Made by a program: the position numbers and the translations under genes
The notes under the pieces: generated by a model
Databases searched by the model: none
Told to the model about the DNA's origin: nothing
Seen by the model: only the letters and a program-made list of their open reading frames with translations
Part shown: piece by piece, positions 38,645-39,496 of the stretch
Position numbering within the stretch: position 1 is the stretch's first letter
Layout of the letters: each line of letters opens with the position of its first letter
NCBI RefSeq assembly: GCF_004118375.1
Contig: NZ_SDHX01000001.1
Span: 3,041,693-3,105,692, forward strand
Direction: 5' to 3'
Origin: Oleiharenicola lentus
Lineage (GTDB): Bacteria; Verrucomicrobiota; Verrucomicrobiia; Opitutales; Opitutaceae
Length of the DNA: 64,000 nt

Positions 38645-39496
38645 ATGCGATTCCACAAGTATCACGCCCTCGGCAACGACTACATCGTGATGGATCCGGC
38701 CGATTTTCCCGGCTGGTCCGCCCCGACGACAGAACAGACCCGTGTTATCTGTCATCGCAATTTCGGCGCCGGCTCCGACGGCATCCTTTGGGGTCCGTTG
38801 CCGACGCAGCGCGCCCAGTTCGGCCTGCGCATCTTCAATCCCGACGGCTCGGAAGCAGAAAAGTCCGGCAACGGGCTCCGCATCTTTTCCCGCTACCTCT
38901 ACGACCAGAAGAAGGTCACGACCGCGCCCTTCACCGTGGACACGCCCGGCGGCGTGGTGAACGTCGTCATCGCACCCGGCGGCCAGTTGCTCACGATCGA
39001 CATGGGGCACGTCAGCTTCGACAGCGCCAAAATACCCGTCGTCGGCGCTCCGCGCGAGGTCTTGCAGGAGAAAATCCAGATCCTCGACCGCGAGTTCATC
39101 TTCACCGCCGCAACGATTGGTAACCCGCACTGCGTGATCCCGCTGCCGACCGTCTCACCCGAGCTGGCGCACCGCTACGGCCCTCACCTCGAAACCCACG
39201 CCAACTTCCCGCGCAAGACCAACGTCCAGTTCCTGCAGGTGCTCGACCGAGCCAACATCCGGATCGAAATCTGGGAACGGGGCGCGGGCTATACACTCGC
39301 CTCCGGCAGCAGCTCCAGCGCGTCAGCGGCCGTGGCGCACAAGCTCGGCCTCGTGGACCGTAAAGTCACCGTGCACATGCCCGGCGGACAGATCGGCATC
39401 GAGATCGGCGACAACTTCTCCATCCGCATGACCGGTCCGGTCACCCGCGTGGCCGAGGGCACACTCCACCCTGAGCTGTTCACCACCAAGGTCTGA
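38645..39496 (+). CDS. dapF: Diaminopimelate epimerase homologue with both catalytic Cys replaced by Ser
   Basis: A 283-residue protein with the full DapF fold: MRFHKYHALGNDYIVMD at the start, GAGSDGILWG, IFNPDGSEAEKSGNGLRIFS, TIGNPHCVIP, and WERGAGYTLASGSSSSASAA. In DapF the two active-site cysteines stand in CGNGxRC and TxACGxG. Here they read SGNGLRI (Ser74, and Ile80 at the second Cys) and LASGSSS (Ser220). The DNA (TCC at 38864 and at 39302) supports both changes. The protein may therefore be a serine-based or altered-specificity isomerase, or not an active epimerase. The ATG at 38645 matches the family N-terminus; the upstream extension overlaps ligA. Gene symbol by homology only. Confidence 0.82.
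   Translation: MRFHKYHALGNDYIVMDPADFPGWSAPTTEQTRVICHRNFGAGSDGILWGPLPTQRAQFGLRIFNPDGSEAEKSGNGLRIFSRYLYDQKKVTTAPFTVDTPGGVVNVVIAPGGQLLTIDMGHVSFDSAKIPVVGAPREVLQEKIQILDREFIFTAATIGNPHCVIPLPTVSPELAHRYGPHLETHANFPRKTNVQFLQVLDRANIRIEIWERGAGYTLASGSSSSASAAVAHKLGLVDRKVTVHMPGGQIGIEIGDNFSIRMTGPVTRVAEGTLHPELFTTKV

Follow-up and report, generated by a model that had tools for sequence, protein, structure and literature searches.

Can a diaminopimelate (DAP) epimerase dispense with its cysteines? DapF is the textbook case of an enzyme in which two cysteines move a proton of very high pKa without any cofactor, and the locus described here, in a window of 64,000 nucleotides of Oleiharenicola lentus DNA (the whole stretch that was analyzed), encodes a homologue of DapF in which that pair is missing. 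In alignments to solved DapF structures, Ser74 falls on the Cys of the CGNG motif and Ser220 on the Cys of ACGTGA (Table 1). The first-pass annotation, made from the bare sequence, had read serine at both sites and isoleucine at position 80 in place of cysteine, and had regarded the gene as not decayed. The structure-based alignments and the codons bear out all three substitutions, and the gene is indeed sound: its 283-codon translation is unbroken with no internal stop, its dN/dS against four close relatives is ~0.10 to 0.16, a sign of purifying selection, and the serine pair recurs in most of the homologues compared.

Table 1. Coordinates of the features discussed; unprefixed positions are those of the window, and counts refer to DapF-like ORFs of the phylum sample
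Feature	Position	Strand	Remarks
Ser/Ser dapF homologue	38645..39496	+	283 aa; TIGR00652, PF01678
Lys73 codon	38861..38863	+	directly precedes first site; K in 229/233 Ser/Ser, I in 4; M/L/T in 42/42 Cys/Cys
Ser74 codon TCC	38864..38866	+	replaces first catalytic Cys
Ile80 codon ATC	38882..38884	+	replaces usual second Cys of first motif; I in 233/233 Ser/Ser
Tyr216 codon	39290..39292	+	Y in 233/233 Ser/Ser; E in 41/42 Cys/Cys
Ser220 codon TCC	39302..39304	+	replaces second catalytic Cys
Ser/Ser dapF cluster	L316:5177-11113		plasmid NZ_AP023281.1, A. vitis
Ser/Ser dapF cluster	L317:7308-13006		plasmid NZ_CP108679.1, Streptomyces

In sequence, fold and substrate site the protein is a DapF, though a nonstandard one in that it lacks the cysteine pair. 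It scores 226.2 bits against the DapF equivalog model TIGR00652 (cut-off 114.65) and 176.5 bits against PF01678, with both halves matched. The AlphaFold model, built on a 39-row alignment (pLDDT 92.2, pTM 0.85), has the DapF fold, and its top structural match, P. aeruginosa DapF 8qzy (Z 36.4, rmsd 1.8 over 271 residues, 37% identity), is also the closest solved structure by sequence (E 1.7e-53). Standard DapF proteins (TIGR00652; P. aeruginosa 8qzy, H. influenzae 1gqz, C. glutamicum 5m47) thus share with the O. lentus type the fold, the two PF01678 halves, the eight DAP contacts and the pathway setting, but carry Cys/Cys rather than Ser/Ser. Because the curated model passes the protein, automatic annotation would label it DapF without notice. 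Two neighboring families were considered and rejected. PF01678 is its sole match in a Pfam scan up to E 1, and its identity to structures of the proline racemase family is 10 to 17%, compared to 37% for DapF 8qzy, which excludes proline racemase membership by sequence; the model of the bifunctional DapF/glutamate racemase, NF038284, gives 64 bits against a cut-off of 350.

The serine pair is widespread. It occurs in all of the first 112 loci (of which L001 to L003 are the O. lentus gene itself, with some genomes entered twice), and in 233 of 278 DapF-like ORFs of a wider sample, comprising regions picked down the identity list across the phylum and 75 of the 76 PF01678-positive genomes of the order (G102 was left out). 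The others were 42 Cys/Cys, one Ser/Cys and two fragments, both of which have Ser at the site that each covers; counted as different proteins, 194 Ser/Ser and 39 Cys/Cys stood among 236. The single mixed pair belongs to a homologue from a 1.0 Mb genome (L256, G410) with a very long tree branch. In a first comparison, 35 of 35 proteins with at least 45% identity to the O. lentus protein were Ser/Ser and 21 of 21 with at most 39% were Cys/Cys. However, since Ser/Ser proteins from small genomes reach down to 33% in the wider sample and Cys/Cys proteins up to 40%, identity alone fails to separate the types. Further residues accompany the serines: Ile80, Tyr216, Ser223, Glu208, Gln195 and usually Lys73 take the place of the Cys, Glu, Gly, Arg, Asn/Glu and Met/Leu found in most Cys-type relatives of the phylum, with Ser223 in 232 of 233 Ser/Ser ORFs and Gly in 42 of 42 Cys/Cys, and Glu208 and Gln195 tracking the type likewise. 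Two other cysteines, which might conceivably stand in for the missing pair, are common in the Ser/Ser set: Cys36 is present in 100% of Ser/Ser and 74% of Cys/Cys proteins, and Cys163 in 94% and 7%, respectively; the cysteine of the GNPHC motif is not peculiar to the Ser/Ser family, as it is shared with the cyanobacterial Cys-type DapF 9mro. No relative was found in the viral contigs searched, and no natural Ser/Ser DapF is described among the titles and abstract openings listed by our search of a largely open-access literature.

In trees from which both motif regions had been removed, the Ser/Ser rows all lie on one side of one branch. Its support was 40 in the first tree (88 rows, some of them long) and 95.6 (SH-aLRT) in the rebuilt tree, from which the long rows L254, L256, L266 and L171 had been removed and to which eight plasmid or phage rows had been added, with L308, L309 and L311 left out; both of these, and the codon tree below, are quick trees without bootstrap. 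The first-pass annotation had proposed checking whether Ser/Ser is conserved as a clade in Verrucomicrobiota; it is a family-wide trait, and the subfamily probably has a single origin. Its serines are written with codons of both boxes, TCN in 108 and AGY in 86 of the 194 proteins at site 74, and TCN in 184 and AGC in 10 at site 220. A quick tree of 84 Ser/Ser sequences requires no fewer than four codon-box switches at site 74 and no fewer than five at site 220. Since each such switch passes via Cys, Thr or a double change and yet returns to Ser, the pattern points to selection for serine itself at both sites.

The substrate site is retained. In C. glutamicum DapF, replacement by Ala of N15, N74, N85, N159, N194, E212, R213 or T223 is reported to nearly abolish activity (PMC5296763). 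The matching positions of the Ser/Ser proteins are Asn11, 65, 76, 160 and 193, Glu211, Arg212 and Ser/Thr222, with Ser accepted for Thr at the last. All eight contacts are present in the O. lentus protein and in 192 of the 193 Ser/Ser proteins whose alignment rows cover every one of these columns. Of the 39 different Cys/Cys proteins of the phylum, just 12 retain the full set, mainly because Val stands in place of Asn160 in 27 (e.g., L181). Judged by these residues, many Cys relatives resemble standard DAP binders less closely than the Ser/Ser proteins do.

The O. lentus gene is flanked by ligA and glgC, both on the opposite strand, and then by glmS and trpE, which is uninformative on function; among 80 loci compared, ligA recurs in none and glgC in one. 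Within ~4 kb of dapF, a protein of ~510 to 540 residues (e.g., L051:2237-3775 (+)) is encoded in 52 of the 80 loci and an S49 peptidase in 49; the former has no Pfam match up to E 1 and no NCBIfam match near cut-off up to E 0.1, and no lysine or wall gene recurs among the neighbors checked, which counts against a DAP role. PF01678 is represented by a single gene in the 4.71 Mb O. lentus genome (rated 100% complete), and the second, Cys-containing dapF that the first-pass annotation had thought worth looking for was absent from the PF01678 search. The genome encodes DapL (569 bits, over cut-off), LysA (463 bits) and MurE (522 bits) with a DNPR motif, which we take to be the mark of a meso-DAP-adding MurE. 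Meso-DAP dehydrogenase Ddh (PF16654), a dehydrogenase unrelated to DapF, is an alternative source of meso-DAP, but no match to it was found in the O. lentus genome, which thus shows no sign of this bypass. LL-DAP is made and meso-DAP used with no other known source between them; with DapL, LysA and this type of MurE encoded and no Ddh, O. lentus should need an LL-DAP epimerase, for which the genome has no candidate besides the Ser/Ser gene. As a separate observation, the glutamate racemase model TIGR00067 (MurI) finds nothing in this genome, although MurE is present.

Across the order, 63 of 87 genomes carry Ser/Ser (one of them, G430, with a Cys/Cys gene as well), nine Cys/Cys, one Ser/Cys and two fragments, 11 are without PF01678, and G102 was left out. 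Full-length Ddh occurs in five of the 87, four among the 11 without PF01678 and one (G417) with Ser/Ser, an association of Ddh with the absence of any PF01678 (Fisher p 0.0007) in which relatedness is uncorrected and three of the four share one genus; a sixth, weak match in G018 (53.8 bits, cut-off 30) was left out as a likely paralogue. Three genomes of one genus in O. lentus's own family (G223, G289, G310) have a Cys/Cys gene instead of Ser/Ser. The Ser/Ser gene stands alone in 21 of 27 genomes searched that carry it; the other six encode a Cys/Cys homologue as well, a point against our main reading, and five of these homologues (L283 to L287) are of a divergent type with Phe replacing the substrate-binding Arg212. 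This alternation of Ser/Ser with Cys-type DapF or Ddh is the pattern that functional equivalence predicts. The outcome for MurE, which should be lost where neither DapF nor Ddh remains, was mixed among 27 genomes. Of those with neither, G441 has no MurE match and G424 and G398 none over cut-off, but G283, G389, G415, G427 and G437 (80 to 97% complete) keep MurE over cut-off with neither PF01678 nor Ddh, and either have another source of meso-DAP or are incomplete assemblies. Conversely, four Ser/Ser genomes have no MurE over cut-off (G390, G411 and G425, each >90% complete, and G421, 61% complete). Because those five genomes keep it, MurE does not strictly imply a visible DapF, and the mixed outcome weakens the pathway argument across the order. 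Among order genomes, 26 of the 76 that have PF01678 encode DapL over cut-off, as against 0 of the 11 that lack it (p 0.03); since DapL co-occurs with both Ser/Ser (22, one with both types) and Cys/Cys (4), it does not separate the DapF types. Ser/Ser persists in 12 of the 19 order genomes without a LysA match, mostly small ones, which would fit a role in the wall rather than in lysine synthesis, though this is only suggestive. LysA itself falls into score classes with no link to DapF type: 448 to 464 bits in nine of the 87 genomes (six of O. lentus's family and three of family f95), all other best matches being at most 285 bits, under the curated cut-off of 297.9.

From the conserved sequence, the tree grouping, the retained substrate site, the sole copy and the pathway context, we infer with moderate confidence that the Ser/Ser subfamily comprises working, cysteine-independent DAP epimerases, most simply with the two serines as the acid/base pair. 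We propose that DapL supplies LL-DAP, which Ser/Ser DapF would convert to meso-DAP, the form used by LysA and MurE. Its fold would close over DAP through the usual contacts, and Ser74 and Ser220, each located at the N-terminus of one of the two central helices, would replace the thiol/thiolate pair in a two-base transfer of the alpha-proton, which the co-varying neighbors Lys73, Tyr216, Glu208, Ser223 and Gln195 may tune or assist. Of the three possibilities raised at first pass, catalysis by serine (or at least independent of cysteine) on the usual substrate is hence the one favored by the DAP contacts, the sole DapF, the lack of Ddh and the presence of DapL, LysA and MurE; a non-catalytic protein is unlikely given that Ser itself is kept, and another substrate is possible, and likely for the plasmid relatives discussed below.

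The main objection to a Ser/Ser epimerase is chemical, serine being a poor base. Cysteine is described as favored over serine for its lower pKa and easier desolvation (PMC8142540), and in the DapF-fold histidine racemase HisR both C67S and C209S are reported to turn over far more slowly (PMC11602996). The first-pass statement that Cys-to-Ser variants of DapF lose most activity agrees with the HisR result; for DapF itself the loss reported is of Cys-to-Ala variants (PMC5296763), and Cys-to-Ser is said to hinder catalysis and aid crystallization (PMC12039745). The engineered H. influenzae variants C73S and C217S (2q9h, 2q9j) have Ser at one of the two sites and the same fold (Z 34.3 and 33.9), but they are man-made single mutants, whereas both O. 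lentus serines are natural and conserved. Natural exchanges of hydroxyl for thiol are found elsewhere. The aspartate/glutamate racemase Ecl-DER belongs to a structural subclass other than that of DapF. This cofactor-independent racemase has one Cys changed to Thr, though at one site only, and it is described as irreversible (PMC8142540). Closer in fold, one or both Cys are missing from some proline racemase superfamily clusters, of which those solved are Ser/Cys and Ser/Thr: the Ser/Cys pair works in 4-hydroxyproline epimerase and the Ser/Thr pair in trans-3-hydroxyproline dehydratase, active enzymes of the same fold class with a natural Ser at a catalytic Cys site, but with ring substrates, a single Ser (the partner being Cys or Thr) and a family separate from DapF (PMC4113996). 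The Ser/Cys precedent softens the objection; in the literature covered we met no characterized Ser/Ser two-base racemase.

The strongest competing explanation, which we nevertheless consider unlikely, is that the protein catalyzes isomerization of, or elimination from, some non-DAP amino acid, with meso-DAP coming from some further enzyme. Homologues outside the phylum lend it some weight. We read 11 homologues on mobile elements, 10 from the 110 matching plasmid records and one from the 27 matching phage records; nine are Cys/Cys and two, from plasmids of Streptomyces sp. NBC_01216 and Agrobacterium vitis VAT03-9, are Ser/Ser. Both plasmids have in common the order of an iron-containing redox enzyme (PF14518), a 2OG-Fe dioxygenase (PF10014), Ser/Ser dapF, a molybdopterin oxidoreductase and an aldo/keto reductase; an EamA transporter is encoded upstream, separated from the redox enzyme in A. 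vitis by three additional listed genes, and the whole looks like an unnamed amino-acid-modifying cluster. Because Asn160, Lys73, Tyr216 and Ser223 are missing from the plasmid proteins, where position 73 is Met or Arg and position 216 is Ser or Leu, these homologues probably act on another amino acid than DAP; the placement of this long-branched pair inside the Ser/Ser side of the tree is unsure. Further points for a non-DAP substrate are that in the proline racemase superfamily a Ser/Thr pair belongs to a dehydratase (PMC4113996), and that, with no MurI match in the O. lentus genome, a role in providing D-Glu as described for chlamydial DapF is thinkable (PMC5885031). Against it, 192 of 193 Verrucomicrobiota Ser/Ser proteins keep the eight DAP contacts, the pair alternates across the order with Cys-type DapF and, in four genomes, with Ddh, and the bifunctional DapF/glutamate racemase model stays far below its cut-off.

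Somewhat less probable still is a DAP epimerase whose protons would be carried by other residues, for example Tyr216 and Lys73 on opposite faces, with the serines serving structure or binding. Alanine racemase is described as employing such a pair, Lys39 and Tyr265 (PMC8142540), and both residues closely follow the Ser/Ser type (Tyr216 in all 233 ORFs of that type, where 41 of 42 Cys/Cys have Glu; Lys73 in 229 of 233, but in 0 of 42), but four Ser/Ser proteins have Ile73 and the plasmid pair has kept neither residue. It is improbable that the protein is a non-catalytic remnant that binds DAP or a protein partner, as E. coli DapF is reported to bind RppH. The loss of both catalytic cysteines would suit such a remnant, yet the substrate-site residues are deeply conserved, as is Ser through its codon-box switches, and O. 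lentus, which should need the reaction, has no other copy. Finally, a sequencing error or pseudogene has a vanishingly small chance of explaining the pair, error, decay and chance alike being ruled out by the conservation of Ser/Ser in other genomes (233 of the 278 ORFs, not all independent) and by the dN/dS.

Returning to serine-based DAP epimerization, we tentatively put forward a wider scenario, whose likelihood we place a little short of even: that one old subfamily of single origin swapped the thiol/thiolate pair for two serines, with oxygen as acid and base in cofactor-free epimerization of an unactivated amino acid, that DAP epimerases of the order, and those of several further families in Verrucomicrobiota, are usually of this kind, and that derived plasmid members in other phyla epimerize a different amino acid within an oxidative biosynthetic cluster.

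Ser/Ser DapF may also bear on an old report of no detectable DAP in subdivision 4 Verrucomicrobia. In Lacunisphaera, thin-layer chromatography is reported to have found no DL-DAP, with E. coli itself giving a weak signal, while GC/MS found DAP in Lacunisphaera and Opitutus terrae at 3 to 7 nmol, about one-tenth of the amount that a different study gave for E. coli; the cited account identifies DAP by fragment ions without giving stereochemistry and states that DapL and DapF are present in one strain (PMC5303756). The loci in our sample named Lacunisphaera and Opitutus are Ser/Ser. Inhibitors of DapF that are covalent or directed at thiols would be expected to miss the Ser/Ser type. If our reading is true, a natural two-serine family would change the view of what this catalysis requires, and would offer a ready comparison of thiol with hydroxyl catalysis within one fold.
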